A stretch of 64,000 bases of DNA from an uncultured Ignavibacteriota bacterium (GTDB lineage Bacteria; Bacteroidota; Ignavibacteria; Palsa-1295), in contig CAIUMP010000001.1 in assembly GCA_903900335.1 (NCBI GenBank), positions 1-64,000 on the forward strand. Reading direction: 5' to 3'. Below, in pieces: positions 6,361 to 38,230 of this stretch; position 1 is the first letter of the stretch, and each line of letters starts with the position of its first letter. Position numbers and translations under genes: made by a program. Below the pieces are notes generated by a model, which ran no database searches, was not told the origin of the DNA, and saw only the letters and a list, made by a program, of their open reading frames with translations.

Positions 6361-6392
6361 TGTCTGTGATCTCCTATTGTCTATCTAAACTC

Positions 6393-6632
6393 TTAATTGA
6401 CGACCGGAGGCTGCTCCTCCGGAGGCTTCGGCTGCAAGTTATTCAGGAAGGCAGCCGATAAAAACTTGAATCTGCCGCACTTCGGGCAGATGTACGTTGT
6501 CACTGGCAGCGCACGAGATGTGTTGAACTGCACACCCTGCGGGGTGACATCGAGCCCAGGCAATGCGAAGAGCTCAGGATTGACCTCCATCTGCGTGCCG
6601 CAGTCTCCACACAATTTTGCCGGTGACGCCAT
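6393..6632 (-). CDS. Small zinc-ribbon protein of unknown function
   Basis: 79 residues with two CxxC pairs (Cys8/Cys11 in LCGDCG and Cys49/Cys52 in ICPKCG) about 37 residues apart, a classic four-Cys zinc ribbon. The C-terminus is Pro-rich (QPKPPEEQPPVV). No signal or membrane segment, so it is probably cytoplasmic. It lies between tRNA-Gly and rpmG on the same strand. I do not recognise a named family; small ribbons like this can bind nucleic acid or act as adaptors. Confidence 0.7.
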   Translation of the reverse strand: MASPAKLCGDCGTQMEVNPELFALPGLDVTPQGVQFNTSRALPVTTYICPKCGRFKFLSAAFLNNLQPKPPEEQPPVVN

Positions 6633-6738
6633 TCGTCAGTAATGATCTTTTATGAATAATGAATTATGAATGGTCAGACGTTGAATAATGAGCAAGCGCT
6701 CTTCTTCTTTATCATTAATCATTCATATTTGCTCAGAG

Positions 6739-6811
6739 AGCGGGAGACGGGACTCGAACCCGCGACCAACAGCTTGGAAGGCTGTGACTCTACCAACTGA
6801 GTTACTCCCGC
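6739..6811 (-). tRNA. trnG: tRNA-Gly (TCC anticodon)
   Basis: A 73-nt cloverleaf on the minus strand. The acceptor pairs gcgggag (6805-6811 read on minus) with 6740-6746. The anticodon stem acagc/gctgt closes the loop CTTCCAA, giving anticodon TCC, and GGTTCGAGTC is the T arm. CCA is not encoded. It heads the tRNA-Gly, zinc ribbon, rpmG, tRNA-Trp, secE, nusG run. Confidence 0.95.
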
Positions 6812-29023: not shown

Positions 29024-32000
29024 TCAGATCAGCACGTCAAACTCCTCGGCTTCCGCCACTCTGCAGACTCGATTATACGGACAGTATTGGCAGTTCTTGA
29101 GTAGGTCCCGTTCGGTCAGCCGAAACACCCCCGTGGAAATTCCTTCAACGTAGGACTGCGCCATTTGGACGGTCCTTTCGATCAGCTGCTCAAGCTCCTC
29201 CTCGGAATTAAGTATCCCCTTTCGCTTGCCATTGCCGATCTGTTCAAAGGCCGTTCCCATATACGTCCGAACGGCGAGACCCGGTTCGCGGACAGAGTCC
29301 TTATCGAGCACCTTGTGGTATAACGCCGCGACTCCCTTCAACTCCGGAAAATGACTTCGGAGCAGGTCCTCGGCGACGCGCAAATAGAGTGGCAATTGGA
29401 GCGAGATCCCTCGCTCCATATCCGCATAACTGGCCGTTTGCTTGCCGGACTTGTAATCAATGATCGTAAAGGTATCGTCCGAGAGGTCAATTCGGTCGAT
29501 CTTCCCGCGAAGCTTGATACCGCCAACAACGACAGGTTCATCGCGCGATAACTCGTTATCGTTGGTCTTTGGGGCAGCTCCATGCATAGCCCTTCCAGCT
29601 CCACCAAAACTGGCTTCGAAATATCGGGGCCGTTGTTCGTTCTTGACGAGTGACCGTTCACGCTGAATGAACTTCCACAGCACATTACGCTCTTGCTTCG
29701 TCTCCATGAGGCTCTCTGCGTCGAGTCTCCAAAACGGATGATCGTTGGAGATGGCTGATAGGTGGCGGTCGGCGATACTTCGCGCCTCCGCGTAGGCTTC
29801 GATTACCTCCTGCTCTGGAATGCTTTGCAGCGAGGGCAACTTGCGTTCTCGGCGATGGGTGAGAAACTCCCGCAATACCTCGTGAAGTACATTGCCACGC
29901 TCGCGAGCATCCAGACCATCCTCCACTTCGCCTTCCTCACGGAGTCCGAGGATATACTTGGAGAAATACTTAAAGGGACAACCGGCATAGAGCTCCAGTT
30001 GCGTAACCGACCATACCCGACTGCGGTTGCGCTCGAGTGCTGCGCGCTCACGTTCGGACAGCATCTCACTATCCACCAGCCCTCGATAAATGGAAAGCTC
30101 TGGCTGGCGGCGCACCTCCTGAACGCGCAGCGCGCGCGGGACGTGGTCACGCAAGGTCTTGCCATAATGTGACCCTGGGGCAATCGCCTCAACCGCCTCA
30201 ACGACCTCCGCAAGTCGCTGAGGTTCGCTTGCGGCCAGCGCCCCAACACGTTGAAAAAGATCACGGTAGGAAAAGACGCCCTCTGCAGGTTTGACCTCAT
30301 CGATCGTGACGATCTCCTCGAGGCTATCTAAGAAAATGGACCGGGAGAACTCCGCATTACTCGAAGTTTTCTTCGGGTAACTAAGGTAAAGCCCACGTTG
30401 GAAATTCGTGACGGATTGATAGAAGAGTACGCGATCCTCCATCAACTGCCGATGCTCTCCTCGCTGCATTCCTTCCATCAGGAAGACTTGTGGCTGATAG
30501 ACGGAAGGCAACGCTCCTTCGGTGAGACCCGCGATGAAAAGGTAATCCACCGGTTGTGCAATGCACTGCGCGAGCGAGGTCACCAGGACCGCCCCAGAAC
30601 AAGGTCGCGGGCTATAGCGAACGAAGATAACAGCAGCTTTGAAGCGCTCTATATAATACGAAAGCGGGCGTTCCTTCTGCGCGTCCCCCATGAGGGTTAG
30701 GAGCGAATCCAGGTCACGAAGCAGCTTCAGCAACTCCCGATAGGCACGAACATCGAGCTCCAAGGTGGCGGCACGGATCGTATGAGCATTTTGAGATAGA
30801 ATACACTTCTGGACCTCAAGCGCCGAGAGTAACTCCCGAACGGCATTACAGAAAGTTGCGGGCGTAAGCGCTTCCTGTAGCGGAAGCAACAACTGCTTAA
30901 GGTGATCGAGATCGAGAATTGCCTTTCCAATGCGTTCCTCTTCACGGCCAAAGTGTGCATGTTGCAGATTATCCTGCGATTGTTCCTGTTGCAGTTTAAT
31001 GATGCTCAGGTGTGCATTCAAACTCCGCTTCCAACCCCGCAGATCGCCAGAGAGCTTATAACGAGCAAAGATATCGAGCAAATTGGGAGCGTCGAGTTGG
31101 GCGCCGTCTGGGTGCGTAAAATTGAAGTACGGGCTTCCGAGAACGCGGATGACCTCCCGGCGCCGAAGCCCAAAACGAGCGATGTCGAACAACGCCAGCA
31201 ACGACAATACAAGTGGAGAGCGATCGAGGTGATGGCGATCGGCGATCTGAACGGGAATTTCATTGCGGCGAAATGCCTCTTCGAATAGCGGCGTGTAGGA
31301 CTCCGCGTTCGGAGTTGCAACGACGATACGAGACAGATCCGACAAGACAGTAGGATCCTCTTCACAGACGAGTTTGATCTTCCGCGCGATCTCTTCGACT
31401 TCCTCTGTTGGATTACGAGCAGACCAGAGCTTGACTGCTCTAGCTGGCTGTCGCTCGAATGCCGGCTCACGGCCGGCAAATAAATGTCTCCGAAGGAGCG
31501 CTCGGTACCCGTCCTGTTGATTAGCACCCTCGGTCGCGCTGGCGCCGGAGACCGCATGGAAGCCGTGTTCCTCCAATTCGGCAATGAGTTTGATCACCTC
31601 GGAAAAGAGCGCGGGATTCTGGTCCATCGAATCCAAATGGATCGTGGTCCGAACGCCTGTAACACCAGAGACTACCGTCAGCAGATCCATCGACGGGCCT
31701 TCGAGGTGATAGAATCCATCGATGAAGATGTCTGTGACGCCAGAAAATCTTGCGCGAAAGTCACTCGTTGCCCGCGCAGTTGCTTGCCTTGTGTCGCCGT
31801 AACGCTCGTTGAGCAGAAGTGTCTGCCCATACGTATCCATGAAGCCATTGTCAATGAGTTTTGACATATACGCATCGTAGATTTCCAGAATATCTGTCGC
31901 GCGACGAACCTCCGTGGACTCACCATGCAATTCAAGAGATCGCTTCAGGTCACGGCGAATATGCTCGGTCGTGACACCGCTCTCCTTCAACTGCCGAATG

Positions 32001-32413
32001 GTATTGACGACCAATTCGAAGGTGCCCCGAGGGATCGGAAACGATGCTGTATCTGAAACTCCGCTTTCCTCATCGGTGGCACGCTCAAAGTAGGAGAGCC
32101 TGTGCTCGGAAATCAGTGAACGGATGGCCTGTTCGACCAGCACGCCAGTCTCCGCATCAGAGAGCAGTTTCAACTTCGGAAATCCCTCTTCGCACAAGAC
32201 GCCGGCAAAATCAGCGAGCGTAAGAATGTGTGGCTCTGCGATTGTTCGCCCTTTCGCGGCTTCGACCAACTCCCGTTCCATCCTGCGCTGCGCAATGCGA
32301 TTCGGAACGAGGTAGAGAAACGTGTGGCTCTCCCCCGTCTGCACGCGCCGCTTGGCTTCATCGGCGAGCGTGCTGAAGGTGGTTCGGGCTGGGGATGTGG
32401 AGAGGAATGGCAT
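29024..32413 (-). CDS. addB: AddB/RexB-like helicase-nuclease subunit
   Basis: 1129 residues from ATG 32413 (MPFLSTSPARTTFSTLADEA). The N-terminal part contains FLYLVPNRIAQRRMERE, as in AddB, where the Walker region is often degenerate. The C-terminus holds a PD-(D/E)XK nuclease: GGIKLRGKIDRIDLSDD and IIDYKSGK. Four Cys likely bind a 4Fe-4S cluster: one in YAGCPFKYF and three in NCQYCPYNRVC. With AddA it would process double-strand breaks. No addA is beside it. Its first 40 codons plus 5' leader are duplicated at 33.7-33.86 kb. Confidence 0.8.
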   Translation of the reverse strand: MPFLSTSPARTTFSTLADEAKRRVQTGESHTFLYLVPNRIAQRRMERELVEAAKGRTIAEPHILTLADFAGVLCEEGFPKLKLLSDAETGVLVEQAIRSLISEHRLSYFERATDEESGVSDTASFPIPRGTFELVVNTIRQLKESGVTTEHIRRDLKRSLELHGESTEVRRATDILEIYDAYMSKLIDNGFMDTYGQTLLLNERYGDTRQATARATSDFRARFSGVTDIFIDGFYHLEGPSMDLLTVVSGVTGVRTTIHLDSMDQNPALFSEVIKLIAELEEHGFHAVSGASATEGANQQDGYRALLRRHLFAGREPAFERQPARAVKLWSARNPTEEVEEIARKIKLVCEEDPTVLSDLSRIVVATPNAESYTPLFEEAFRRNEIPVQIADRHHLDRSPLVLSLLALFDIARFGLRRREVIRVLGSPYFNFTHPDGAQLDAPNLLDIFARYKLSGDLRGWKRSLNAHLSIIKLQQEQSQDNLQHAHFGREEERIGKAILDLDHLKQLLLPLQEALTPATFCNAVRELLSALEVQKCILSQNAHTIRAATLELDVRAYRELLKLLRDLDSLLTLMGDAQKERPLSYYIERFKAAVIFVRYSPRPCSGAVLVTSLAQCIAQPVDYLFIAGLTEGALPSVYQPQVFLMEGMQRGEHRQLMEDRVLFYQSVTNFQRGLYLSYPKKTSSNAEFSRSIFLDSLEEIVTIDEVKPAEGVFSYRDLFQRVGALAASEPQRLAEVVEAVEAIAPGSHYGKTLRDHVPRALRVQEVRRQPELSIYRGLVDSEMLSERERAALERNRSRVWSVTQLELYAGCPFKYFSKYILGLREEGEVEDGLDARERGNVLHEVLREFLTHRRERKLPSLQSIPEQEVIEAYAEARSIADRHLSAISNDHPFWRLDAESLMETKQERNVLWKFIQRERSLVKNEQRPRYFEASFGGAGRAMHGAAPKTNDNELSRDEPVVVGGIKLRGKIDRIDLSDDTFTIIDYKSGKQTASYADMERGISLQLPLYLRVAEDLLRSHFPELKGVAALYHKVLDKDSVREPGLAVRTYMGTAFEQIGNGKRKGILNSEEELEQLIERTVQMAQSYVEGISTGVFRLTERDLLKNCQYCPYNRVCRVAEAEEFDVLI

Positions 32414-32456
32414 CGGTAATTGTAACCGGAGATTGACGAAGGACGTGCCGTGCGCT
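32298..32456. repeat. Direct repeat copy A: 5' end and leader of the addB-like gene
   Basis: About 160 bp, ending about 43 bases upstream of the addB-like start, that is repeated in the same orientation at about 33697-33857 with small differences. The match includes gagaaacgtgtggctctccc and gctggggatgtggagaggaa. The two copies bracket the glycosyltransferase-like gene. Confidence 0.9.
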
Positions 32457-32771
32457 CTCATGGCCATCGCAACGCGAGACACTCATCAGGCCTACCGCAA
32501 CAGGTTGGATTGCGTTTCGTGTTGAGCACATTAGCAACGGTCGATCTTTGATTGCTCTCCATATTCCCGCCCAATATCGAGTTGCGCTCGCAATGTGAAT
32601 TCTCCAGCAACAGCCACTTGGATCTCCCCATGTCGAAGGAGCGCGGCATCACATCTCTGGAGTTAACTGATCGCCATTGACAACAGCGCGGTGTCAACAA
32701 ATCGAAATGGTGGGGTTCGGTGCGGATTGTAAGCTTGTATCAATCGGTTTGAATGTTCCGTTCTTGTGCCG

Positions 32772-32782
32772 CCCCCCCCCCC
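32772..32782. repeat. Poly-C tract of 11
   Basis: Eleven consecutive Cs lie 47 bases upstream of the probable ATG of the glycosyltransferase-like gene. A longer frame starting at TTG 32677 runs through the tract in phase, so slippage could alter either spacing or frame. Confidence 0.85.
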
Positions 32783-32829
32783 TTCCACCTCCCGGTCTAG
32801 GCATTGGCAACATTTGCGTATTGGAAAAT

Positions 32830-33672
32830 ATGATTCAGGCCACCGCAGTCCTCATTACGAAGGAAGCCTCCTACCCGCAAGAAGTACTTGACTCCTTGCC
32901 CGAGTTCGAGGAAATCCTAGTCTATCCAAACTGCCCAGATCTACTCCACCGCTTTCACAAAGCAAGTGAGGCGAGAAACGAGTTGATCTACGTTCAAGAC
33001 GACGATTGTATTATTCGTGACATTCCCGCGCTGCTAGCGAGATTTGACGGACGTATTACAAATTATGTTAAGAGAAGTCATCTGGAGTGGTACGATGGTA
33101 CCGGCATCACTCTTCTCGGCTGGGGCGCGTTCTTCCGTAAAGAAAGCATCAACTTTGAGCGCTATACGAGTCGGTATGGATTTGATCTGGATCTTCTTCG
33201 AGAGGCCGATAGGATCTTCACGTTCTTAAATCAGCCGTGCAATACAGTCGTCGGAGAGATAGTTGATTTGGCAACCTGGAATGACGGCAGTAGAATGTCC
33301 AATGCGGCTGACCATTACCAGCGGTTGGAGAGGACCTTACAAAAATGTCTGCTACTTTCGTCAGACATCTATCAACCGGCACCAATAAAGGCTCTGATCG
33401 CACTATGCACTTACTTCAGAAACAACCAGCAGTACGAGGAAGCCTACAAGCTCTCACTTATCCCCCCTGTCCCCTCGCCTAACCCCACCCCCGATGATCC
33501 CAACTCGTTATGGAGGCTTCTTGAAGAGCATGGGCTGGCCGCATATTACCTGGGAAGGTTTGATGAAGCGCGTGAATATTTCCTTCGGATCATGGACTCC
33601 GATCCACCCGCTGGAGATAGAGCACGAACACTGCAGAATATTGGATTCTGCGATGCAAAGCTTGTTGGATAA
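32830..33672 (+). CDS. Glycosyltransferase-like protein with C-terminal TPR-like helices
   Basis: 280 residues from ATG 32830 (MIQATAVLITKEASYP). The N-terminal 190 residues look like a GT-A fold: ITKEASYP at strand 1, LIYVQDDDCII with DDD at 57-59 as the metal-binding DxD, and acidic loops. From about 200 the sequence becomes helical and repeat-like (PIKALIALCTYFRNNQQYEEAYKL, GLAAYYLGRFDEAREYFLR), matching TPR units. Sugar and acceptor are unknown. Base composition is lower in GC (about 47% in two sample lines) than that of flanking genes, and it lies between direct copies of the addB 5' end, suggesting insertion. Confidence 0.6.
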   Translation: MIQATAVLITKEASYPQEVLDSLPEFEEILVYPNCPDLLHRFHKASEARNELIYVQDDDCIIRDIPALLARFDGRITNYVKRSHLEWYDGTGITLLGWGAFFRKESINFERYTSRYGFDLDLLREADRIFTFLNQPCNTVVGEIVDLATWNDGSRMSNAADHYQRLERTLQKCLLLSSDIYQPAPIKALIALCTYFRNNQQYEEAYKLSLIPPVPSPNPTPDDPNSLWRLLEEHGLAAYYLGRFDEAREYFLRIMDSDPPAGDRARTLQNIGFCDAKLVG

Positions 33673-33696
33673 ACATTCAATACAGTTTCAGGGTGC

Positions 33697-33857
33697 CAAT
33701 CCAATTGGGGACGAGATAGAGAAACGTGTGGCTCTCCCCGCCTGCACGCGCCGCTTGGCTTCATCTGCAAGTGTGCTGAAGGTTGTTCGGGCTGGGGATG
33801 TGGAGAGGAATGGCATGGATGAATCTAACCGGAGATCGTTTCAGGACGTGCCGCGAA
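33697..33857 (-). pseudogene. Broken second copy of the addB 5' end
   Basis: Read on the minus strand, this begins MPFLSTSPARTTFSTLADEA exactly as the real addB-like protein, then loses one G in a G-run after about 26 codons and shifts frame. Past the shift the sequence still resembles FLYLVPN in the other frame. Homology also covers about 43 bases of 5' leader. The rest of the gene is absent and the rpoC terminator follows. It is a truncated remnant, direct-repeated with 32298-32456. Confidence 0.85.
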
Positions 33858-33890
33858 CTGCGGTGCGAACGGACGAACGATTAATGCGGA

Positions 33891-33924
33891 CAAAACGAAA
33901 AGACCCCAGCCAAAGCCGGGGTCT
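33891..33924 (-). terminator. rpoC terminator
   Basis: On the minus strand a 7-bp stem (agacccc/ggggtct) with inner GGC/GCT pairing is followed by TTTCGTTTTG. It lies 26 bases after the rpoC stop and ends the rpoBC unit. Confidence 0.85.
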
Positions 33925-33949
33925 TTCCAGAATTCTCGCAGCGAATAAC

Positions 33950-36900
33950 TTACGCTGCCACACGCTCCCGACGCATCACGCGATCCGCAGATGGAGCTTC
34001 TTCGGCGCCCATCCAGCCACCGGTGTCGGTGTTGGTTTTGAACTCTTCCTTCGGCGATACGATGAGATCGCGGAATTTCGGAAGGCCCGTACCGGCCGGG
34101 ATAAGGTGACCGACGATAACATTCTCCTTGAGTCCGAGCAGGGTATCGACCTTCGCCTGGATTGCGGCGTCGGTGAGCACCTTTGTCGTCTCCTGGAAGG
34201 ATGCGGCGGAGATGAAGCTCTCTGTGGTAAGAGCAGCCTGTGTGATGCCGAGCAGCACGGGTTCGCCATGTACTGGCTCTGCCGGACGTGCCTCGGGCAC
34301 GATCTTCTCCTTCTTCTTGAGATCGGTGACGACCTCCTTGAATCGCTTCTTGTCGAACATCTGAGCGACCTTGAACTTCGAATCACCACGCTTGGTGATG
34401 AAGACCGAGTTCATCAGCATCTCATTCTCGGTCGCGACCTTCGCCTTATCGACCTCATCATTGACGAGCAACAGCGAATCGCCGCTGGCTGTGATGCGGA
34501 CCTTGCCCAACATCTGGCGCACGATGACTTCGATATGCTTATCGGAGATCTTCACACCCTGCATGCGATAGACTTCCTGAATCTCATTCACAAGGTACTG
34601 CTGCACTTCTGCAACGCCCTTGATCGCGAGAATATCATGTGGGTCGATCGCACCATCGGACAGACGCTCTCCCGAACGGACGGTGTCGCCTTCCTGGACA
34701 AGAATGTGCTTACCGAATGGAATCGTGTACTCGCGGCGGTCGGTCGCATCGTGCGATGTGACGACGACGACGCGTGAACCACGACGCGGCTTCTCGAAGT
34801 GAACCGCTCCGTCGATCTCGGAGACCGTCGCGGGATCGCTTGGCGAACGCGCCTCGAAGAGCTCCGTAACGCGCGGAAGACCTCCCGTGATGTCACGCTG
34901 CTTGCCGGACTCACGTGCGATCTTCACGAGCACCGTTGCAGCCTCGATGTCCTGATGATTCTGGACCTGGAGAATGGCGTTGCTCGGGATAATGTAGTTA
35001 ATGATAACATGACCATCCGAGGCAACGATGTCGATCGTCGGCGACTTTGTGCGATCGCGTGAGTCGATCGTACGGATCTGGAGATTACCCGTAAGTTCGT
35101 CGGCCTCTTCGCGGAACGTGATGTTCTCGATGAAGTCCTTGAAGCGGATCGCGCCAGCATGTTCCGAAATAATGACCGCATTGTACGGATCCCACTCATA
35201 GAGCATCTCGCCCTTGACGACCACCTTGCCATCTGTGACGAGGATACGCGAGCCATACGGCACATCGAACTTACCGACAACGCGGTTATCTTCGTCGAGC
35301 ACGTTCACGACACCGGAGCGGCTCATGACGATATGCTCGCCTTCCGGATTGATGACGACCTTCATGCCTTCGTATTGCACGGTGCCATCGAACTTCGACG
35401 TGACCTGCGACTGCGATGCGATGAGCGATGCGGCACCACCCGTGTGGAATGTACGAAGCGTAAGCTGCGTACCGGGCTCGCCGATGGACTGTGCCGCGAT
35501 GATACCCACAGCCTCTCCCATTTCGACGATCTTGTGCGTCGTGAGGTTGCGACCGTAGCACTGCGCGCACACACCGCGGCGGGCTTCGCATGTAAGCACC
35601 GAGCGGATGAGCACGGTCTCGATGGAGGTCGAAGCGATCTTCGCAGCGACGATCTCGTCGATCATGCCGCCAGCCTCAACGAGCACCTCGCCGTTGAGTG
35701 GATCGGTGACGACATCGAGCGTAACACGACCGAGGATACGCTCGGAGAGCGGTTCCTTTACGTCTTCGCCTTCCTTCAATGCGCTGACCGGAATACCACG
35801 GATCGTACCGCAGTCGAAGCCGGAGATGATAGCATCCTGCGCGGCGTCGATGAGGCGGCGCGTGAGGTAACCGGCGTCCGCTGTTTTGAGAGCCGTATCG
35901 GCAAGGCCCTTACGAGCGCCGTGCGTCGAGATGAAGTACTCGAGGATCGAAAGACCCTCGTGGAAGTTCGAGATGATCGGGTTTTCGATAAGCTCGCCCG
36001 TCTGTCCTGACAAGGACTTCTGCGGCTTGGCCATAAGACCGCGCATACCGGCAAGCTGACGAACCTGTTCTTTCGATCCACGAGCGCCGGAATCGACCAT
36101 CATGTAGAGTGGATTGAATCCATCGCGGTCGTGCTGCAACGCGTCGAAGAGCTTGTCCGCAGTGCGGTTTGTCGCACGCGTCCAGATGTCGATGACCTTG
36201 TTGTAGCGTTCGCCAGAGGTCATGAAGCCGTTGAGGTACTTGTCCTGAACGTCATCAACCTGCTTCTGCGCTTTCGCGATGATCTCGTCCTTCTCCTTCG
36301 GCACGATGATGTCCGAGAGAGCTACGGAGAGTCCGCCCTTCGTTGCAAATCCGAATCCGAGATCCTTGAGCTTATCAAGGAAGATAACGGTCTTGAGCGT
36401 ACCGACCGAGCGGAACGTGGTCGCGATGATCTGACGCAGACGCTTCTTTGTGAGAAGCTCATTCAGATAACCGAGTTCTTCTGGCACGATTGCATTAAAG
36501 ATCGCGCGACCCGTCGTGGTCTCGATCATCTTGCCCTTGACGCGGACGTGAATCTTCGCGTGAAGATCGAGGCGACCGAGATTGTAGGCGATGACAGCTT
36601 CCTTCGAGTCCGAGAAGCGCATACCTTCGCCGAGCGCACCCACGCGGTGTTTCGTGAGATAGTACGCTCCAAGAACCATGTCCTGCGACGGAACGGCGAT
36701 CGGCTCACCATTCTGCGGGGAGATGATGTTGTGCGAAGAGAGCATGAGGATCGCACACTCGAGCTGTGCTTCGTAGCTCAGCGGCACGTGAACGGCCATC
36801 TGATCGCCGTCAAAGTCAGCGTTAAAGGCGGTACAGACGAGCGGATGAAGCTGCAACGCGCGTCCTTCGACAAGGCGTGGCTGGAACGCCTGAATGCCGA

Positions 36901-38230
36901 GTCTGTGCAGAGTGGGAGCGCGGTTGAGCATGATCGGATGCCCATCGATGATGGACTCCAAAATATCCCACACTTCGGTTGTCTTCTTTTCAACGACCTT
37001 CTTCGCACTCTTTACCGTCTTCGTAATTCCGCGCTCGATGAGCTTGCGGATGATGAACGGCTTGAAGAGTTCGACAGCCATCTCCTTCGGAAGTCCGCAC
37101 TCGTGTAGCTTGAGTTCTGGTCCGACGACGATAACCGAACGACCGGAATAATCAACGCGCTTACCCAGCAAGTTCTGGCGGAAGCGGCCCTGCTTACCCT
37201 TGAGGGTATCAGAGAGTGACTTGAGCGCGCGGCTTGTGTCCGAACGTACAGCAGAAACACGGCGCGAGTTATCGAGCAGCGAATCCACGGCCTCTTGCAA
37301 CATGCGCTTCTCATTACGCAAAATAACCTCTGGCGCCTTGATGTCCATCAGGCGCTTCAAGCGGTTGTTGCGGATGATAACGCGGCGATAGAGATCGTTG
37401 AGATCGGATGTGGCGAAGCGACCGCCTTCAAGCGGCACAAGCGGACGAAGCTCTGGCGGAATAACTGGAATGACATTCATGACCATCCACCACGGACGGT
37501 TCTCCGGCTTGTTCTCGTCTTCACGGAATGCCTCGATGGTGCGGAGACGCTTCAGCGCGTCCTGACGCTTCAACTGCGAAGTCTCTTCACGCGCTGCACG
37601 GCGAAGATCGAGCGATAAAGCTTCGATGTCCGTGCGTTTCAGAAGCTCCTTGATAGCCTCACCGCCGATGAGGGCAATGAACTTGTTCGGGTCTTCGTCG
37701 GACATCTCGGTGTTGCCCGGAGGAAGCGAATCGAGCACCTTGAAGTACTCTTCTTCCGTCAACAAATGCTTGATCGGAAGCCCTGTGCCGCCAGCGTTGA
37801 CGACGACATACGACTCATAATAGACGATCTTTTCGAGATCCTTCGTCGGCATTCCGAGCAAGTGACCGATCTTATTCGGCAGCGAACGGAAATACCAAAT
37901 ATGCACGACAGGCACGGCGAGCATGATGTGTCCAAAACGCTCGCGGCGCACGGACTTCGTTGTTACCTCGACGCCGCAGCGGTCGCAGATAATGCCTTTG
38001 TAACGGATGCGCTTGTACTTTCCGCAATAGCATTCCCAATCGCGCGTTGGTCCGAAGATCTTCTCGCAAAAGAGTCCGTCTTTTTCCGGGCGATACGACC
38101 GGTAGTTGATCGTCTCGGGCTTCGTCACTTCGCCATGGCTACGGTTGAGCATCGAGTCCGGAGACGAGAGGCCCACCGAGATGGAGGCGAAATTACGAAG
38201 CGGTACTTCCTGGGGCAGCATGTAAGCCAT
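33950..38230 (-). CDS. rpoC: DNA-directed RNA polymerase subunit beta'
   Basis: 1426 residues, full length for Bacteroidota-type beta'. The N-terminal zinc site is [20 protein letters not shown], the catalytic loop is [12 protein letters not shown], and the second zinc site is [15 protein letters not shown]. The bridge-helix region near [20 protein letters not shown] is intact, and the trigger-loop region is present. It catalyses RNA synthesis with RpoB. ATG 38230 (MAYMLPQ) is used; ATG 38221 is possible. Separation from rpoB by 163 bp with three hairpins is unusual. Confidence 0.98.

Follow-up and report, generated by a model that had tools for sequence, protein, structure and literature searches.

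A glycosyltransferase gene with an addB 5′ end on either side in an Ignavibacteriota genome: a possible scar of exchange between diverged addB alleles

In the genome of an uncultured Ignavibacteriota bacterium, an apparently chimeric glycosyltransferase (GT) gene lies between rpoC and an addB-like gene and is bracketed by the 5′ end of addB, one copy belonging to the live gene and the other being broken. We tentatively propose, with a confidence that stops just short of even, that two diverged addB alleles were exchanged here and left a scar, the resident one remaining as a stub. Exchange of this sort, probably with a close relative, is an interesting but ordinary kind of bacterial genome change. 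The window that we analysed is a stretch of 64,000 nucleotides, and coordinates refer to it unless another contig is named.

The live addB-like gene occupies 29024–32413 on the minus strand, counted from what is most likely its true start, ATG 32413, rather than from GTG 32482. We prefer this ATG because the proteins of several genus relatives (G002, G003, G005 and G006) begin there, with MPLL or MPLI; with this start each repeat would comprise a 37-nt leader and about 120 coding nucleotides. The predicted product carries the C-terminal PD-(D/E)XK nuclease domain (PF12705 PDDEXK_1, E 2e-39 in Pfam), and its best NCBIfam match is TIGR02773 addB_Gpos (E 4.7e-42, residues 16–1086, below the curated cut-off); a nuclease domain together with full-length similarity is what would be expected of an AddB protein. 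Copy A of the repeat (32292–32450, minus strand) consists of the leader and the first ~40 codons of this live gene. Beyond it lie the non-coding start of the insert (32451–32829), between the divergent addB and GT genes, for which neither the bacterium's genome nor the loci compared gave a match, and the GT gene itself (32830–33672, plus strand). Copy B (33697–33853, minus strand), the leader and start of a second addB with its ATG at 33816, stands directly behind the rpoC terminator, a terminator-like hairpin (33896–33929, minus strand). A search of 32200–34100 found no Rfam family at gathering score; three sub-threshold matches over the hairpin were ignored. The conserved right flank is rpoC (33950–38230, minus strand), and the next gene upstream of it is a putative rpoB. 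The GT gene is oriented opposite to both addB and rpoC and has a GC content of 49.4% (addB body 54.6%, rpoC 56.6%, window 53.9%), so that the intervening GT/TPR gene is indeed, as an earlier note on this DNA had it, of lower GC and on the other strand.

Two direct repeats, 32333–32450 with 33736–33853 (118 nt, 87% identical) and 32293–32335 with 33697–33739 (43 nt, 88% identical), share a spacing of 1403–1404 bp, and in a gapped alignment they merge into a single unit in which A runs from 32450 to 32289 and B from 33853 to 33694. Both copies read in the same direction, and their alignment score of 230 compares with a best of 39 in 1000 shuffles. The earlier note's description, that some 160 bp of addB start and leader recur 1.4 kb away in the same direction and that the second copy is frameshifted and shortened, is thus borne out, apart from where addB most likely begins: copy B has lost one base after codon 27 (GGGGG to GGGG), and its similarity to addB stops abruptly at codon 39. 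Searching the genome with the whole AddB protein gave two places only, addB itself and 33694–33873 on the minus strand (58% identical over residues 5–64, E 2e-13, one internal stop), and neither the genome nor the insert yielded any further remnant of a second addB.

Of the 121 sites compared in the coding part of the two copies, ten differ; third codon positions account for eight of these and first positions for two, while second positions are all alike. Seven codons differ silently, and the only residue changes are T26A and one in the edge codon 39 (R to W), making three residue-changing nucleotides in all, or one if the edge codon is set aside. Of the 37 leader sites, 10 are mismatched (Fisher p 0.008 against the coding part); these mismatches cluster in two blocks, and the leader may not be neutral. 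Estimated distances are dS ~0.28, ~0.34 in the leader and dN ~0.036 (edge codon counted), so that silent sites and leader concur at about 0.3 per site. Had copy B been dead since a duplication in place, with half of the divergence falling on B free of constraint, 12–13 non-silent differences would be expected where three (or one) are seen; averaged over the uncertainty in the neutral distance, the probability of the data under this model is 0.006 with the edge codon and 0.0005 without it. If B was dead for 0.3 of the divergence, the corresponding values are 0.07 and 0.009. The sample is small (157 bp, ten coding differences), and the evidence that copy B was coding through most of the A/B divergence is good but not conclusive: its protein sequence was mostly kept while leader and silent sites diverged by ~0.3 per site. 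The single one-base deletion is consistent with a recent death. If both copies were coding during most of their separation, then they would be either alleles of two close lineages that recombination united or a long-lived tandem duplicate.

Under the exchange of alleles that we favour, the ancestor would have had rpoC, its terminator and then, ~130 bp further on, an addB allele B. Incoming DNA, from a close relative, would have carried the GT gene divergently upstream of an addB allele A. One end would have been joined by homologous recombination inside or beyond addB, and the other by a non-homologous joint at about codon 39 of the resident addB. The live addB would now be wholly or partly allele A, with the GT gene brought along upstream of it, and the first ~157 bp of the resident gene would have stayed behind the rpoC terminator and then lost one base. 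We infer that the alleles stem from different strains, which way the DNA moved and by what route it recombined; transfer may have run the other way. Matches to AddB occur in 38 of 41 genomes, our own included, and none is near A or B, the closest being 54% identical to the window's AddB, a distance at which the donor of neither allele is traceable.

A tandem duplication in this lineage fits nearly as well, in which both addB copies remained functional until diverged and the upstream one was then reduced to its 5′ end when the GT gene took its place. It accounts for the same coding-preserving substitutions and for the fact that no relative comes nearly as close to A or B as the two do to one another, and the earlier note's proposal of a failed tandem duplication survives if the second copy was functional for a long time. 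Against it, neither the insert nor the genome contained anything of a second copy's body or 3′ end, and recombination normally removes long direct repeats well before they reach a divergence like that of A and B. We regard it as rather unlikely, and prefer allele exchange because the searches turned up no more of a second addB than copy B and because the genes around addB change from one member of the genus to another.

That variation was viewed in ten genomes (our own, G001–G008 and G012, leaving out G009–G011). Only in our genome and in G006 does rpoC adjoin addB. Upstream of addB, G001 and G002 share another neighbour, and G003, G004 and G005 have short ORFs without relatives; downstream, a histidine-kinase neighbour is common to our genome, G001 and G002, and G006 has different ones in common with G004 and G005. 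Within this one genus the addB neighbours of G001–G006 (L067–L072) vary as if at a rearrangement-prone spot. The RpoC tree (10 genomes; G003, G010 and G012 of the 12 relatives were omitted, their rpoC being split or partial) places our genome inside the genus without resolving its position and groups G006 with G005. The earlier note had looked to relatives for an empty site, and G006 provides a weak test of this: about 600 bp separate its rpoC from its addB, a stretch that has a single addB start and lacks the GT gene. It shows the flanks without the GT gene, but at ~50% AddB identity it lies too far off to establish an empty site or to date the event. The DNA of 32280–33900 had no match in the six other members of the genus. 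The GT gene occurs in 0 of 60 relatives and its catalytic domain in 0 of 293 genomes of the class. Of the earlier interpretation, this much is supported: a foreign-looking gene stands between two addB 5′ ends, one of them dead, and the related genomes lack it. A relative with the GT gene and a single addB end, which the earlier note had named as contrary evidence, was sought and was absent from both sets; it could not have appeared there, since none of these genomes carries the gene or its catalytic domain.

A third explanation, that the GT segment was inserted once with copying of a ~157-bp target and that B has been dead ever since, matches the geometry exactly, a GT gene flanked by long direct repeats of its target, and insertions of this sort, with target duplications that are long and variable, have been reported for restriction-modification genes (PMC3031569, PMC1643837). 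It fits worse than either reading above, as a dead B should show the 12–13 non-silent differences rather than the one to three seen, and as the other eight places in this genome that carry the tail of the GT protein (in five regions) lack bracketing long direct repeats. We disfavour it on the substitution pattern and think it distinctly unlikely, so that copy B does not seem to be, as one half of the earlier note's proposal had it, the mere by-product of a target-duplicating insertion. An assembly artefact joining the sequences of two co-occurring strains in one contig is very improbable: the genome is in 62 contigs, but its reported contamination is 0.97% at a completeness of 100, the longest identical stretch shared by A and B in the gapped alignment (~32 nt) is short for a false overlap, and rpoC with its terminator continues straight into B.

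Two further readings of the insert were rejected. For a transposon or IS insertion, no transposase was seen, only the GT ORF standing out in the insert, and the best end-to-end inverted match, 16 against a shuffle maximum of 20, gives no significant terminal inverted repeats. The C11 run (32772–32782, plus strand) lies 47 nt before the GT gene begins, and no other stretch of C or G in the window reaches 8; phase variation by this run was set aside as seven C/G-run loci viewed had no consistent tie to glycosyltransferase genes. Elsewhere in the genome there are C/G runs of 9 to 37, in part at contig ends, with long ones on G000:C49, C50, C52, C21, C31, C40 and others.

The GT protein (280 residues) has two parts, a phage-type GT-A-like domain (residues 1 to ~175) and a TPR tail (~175–280). 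The first part matches 23 of 23 fetched loci (20 on viral contigs, three on MAG contigs), and none of these aligns past residue 205. IYVQDDDC is invariant, along with other residues, in all 12 aligned N-domains, the window's included, and would provide the acidic metal/nucleotide-sugar motif expected of a GT-A enzyme; no model in Pfam, NCBIfam or PHROGs covers this domain. On one viral contig (L047, 3420–5528) a polysaccharide-biosynthesis epimerase is fused to a transferase domain of the QDDDC type. The confident fold model (pLDDT 89, pTM 0.70) has glycosyltransferases and TPR proteins as its best solved-structure matches, with E 5e-4 and TM-scores of only 0.3–0.4, modest as expected when a whole two-domain model is compared at once. 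We predict a sugar transferase of GT-A fold, and by family reasoning the protein would transfer a sugar.

The TPR-like tail occurs in nine places of the bacterium's own genome, the window's GT included, but in none of the viral contigs and in 0 of the class's 293 other genomes. As we read the ORF lists, seven of the eight other tail-bearing genes begin with family 2 glycosyltransferase sequence (PF00535 matched in 3/3 scanned), and the eighth consists of the tail and a hydrophobic end. At L077 (G000:C4), 6376–6792, the tail module stands alone and is followed by a single hydrophobic segment. The window's GT gene looks like a chimera made in its own lineage, and the fusion probably predates the death of copy B, since its tail is at best 54–57% identical to its relatives. 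The tail could be a shared docking or assembly module of the genome's own GT family. Two tail-bearing clusters (C4 and C23) adjoin collagen-like genes at contig ends, which makes surface collagen-like proteins a plausible candidate acceptor, with the tail as the docking part. These ORFs, of Gly-Pro-Thr/Gly-Pro-Gln repeats (L077, G000:C4, 145–1950; L076, G000:C23, 17599–18045), each adjoin a GT gene cluster, and the two contigs may meet in the collagen-like repeat. We also considered bracketing repeats as a habit of this GT family and rejected it: of the five regions with the other eight tail-bearing places, two hold a long direct repeat pair (73% and 72%), in both cases in neighbouring or repeated coding sequence rather than as brackets.

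A bolder reading, which we rate a long shot, is that the genome keeps a private family of GTs with one docking tail, captures catalytic domains for it (here a phage-type one) and seats the resulting genes next to housekeeping genes through exchanges in which stubs of the displaced alleles stay behind; the stub would then be a dated record of the event. More generally, a broken copy whose differences are mostly silent points to a recent death and an earlier life as a separate coding sequence, so that the substitution pattern could offer a simple means of telling target duplication in place from allele exchange at genes bracketed by long repeats. If confirmed, exchange between addB alleles would suggest a route by which accessory surface-sugar genes reach essential genes without a transposon, and the chimeric GT would add a modest case in which a catalytic domain was swapped onto a tail specific to its lineage.

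Insertion with long target duplication, reportedly a subject of Nobusato et al. in 2000, resembles the window's locus in that a gene lies between direct copies of a target stretch greatly exceeding what a transposon duplicates. Its known cases (PMC3031569, PMC1643837) centre on restriction-modification genes; the window's copies, in contrast, differ by ~13%, in a pattern suggesting that both were coding. Homology-facilitated illegitimate recombination, with one homologous and one non-homologous end (PMC3240628), is proposed in PMC5361080 for incoming modules that leave behind parts of the resident genes they displace; usually it brings a deletion of similar size and 3–10 bp of micro-homology. 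Merodiploidy after transformation is alike in that exchange with transforming DNA can yield two copies of a gene region, but the duplications given in PMC3784515 measure ~100–900 kb, and the window holds a 157-bp stub. As for the GT protein, its model has a weak fold match to S-glycosyltransferases of the SunS/ThuS type (7msk, 7msp; TIGR04195), and one tail-bearing relative in its own genome matches TIGR04195 below the cut-off; at 12% identity and a TM-score of ~0.3, however, the catalytic domain of the window's GT belongs to another family.
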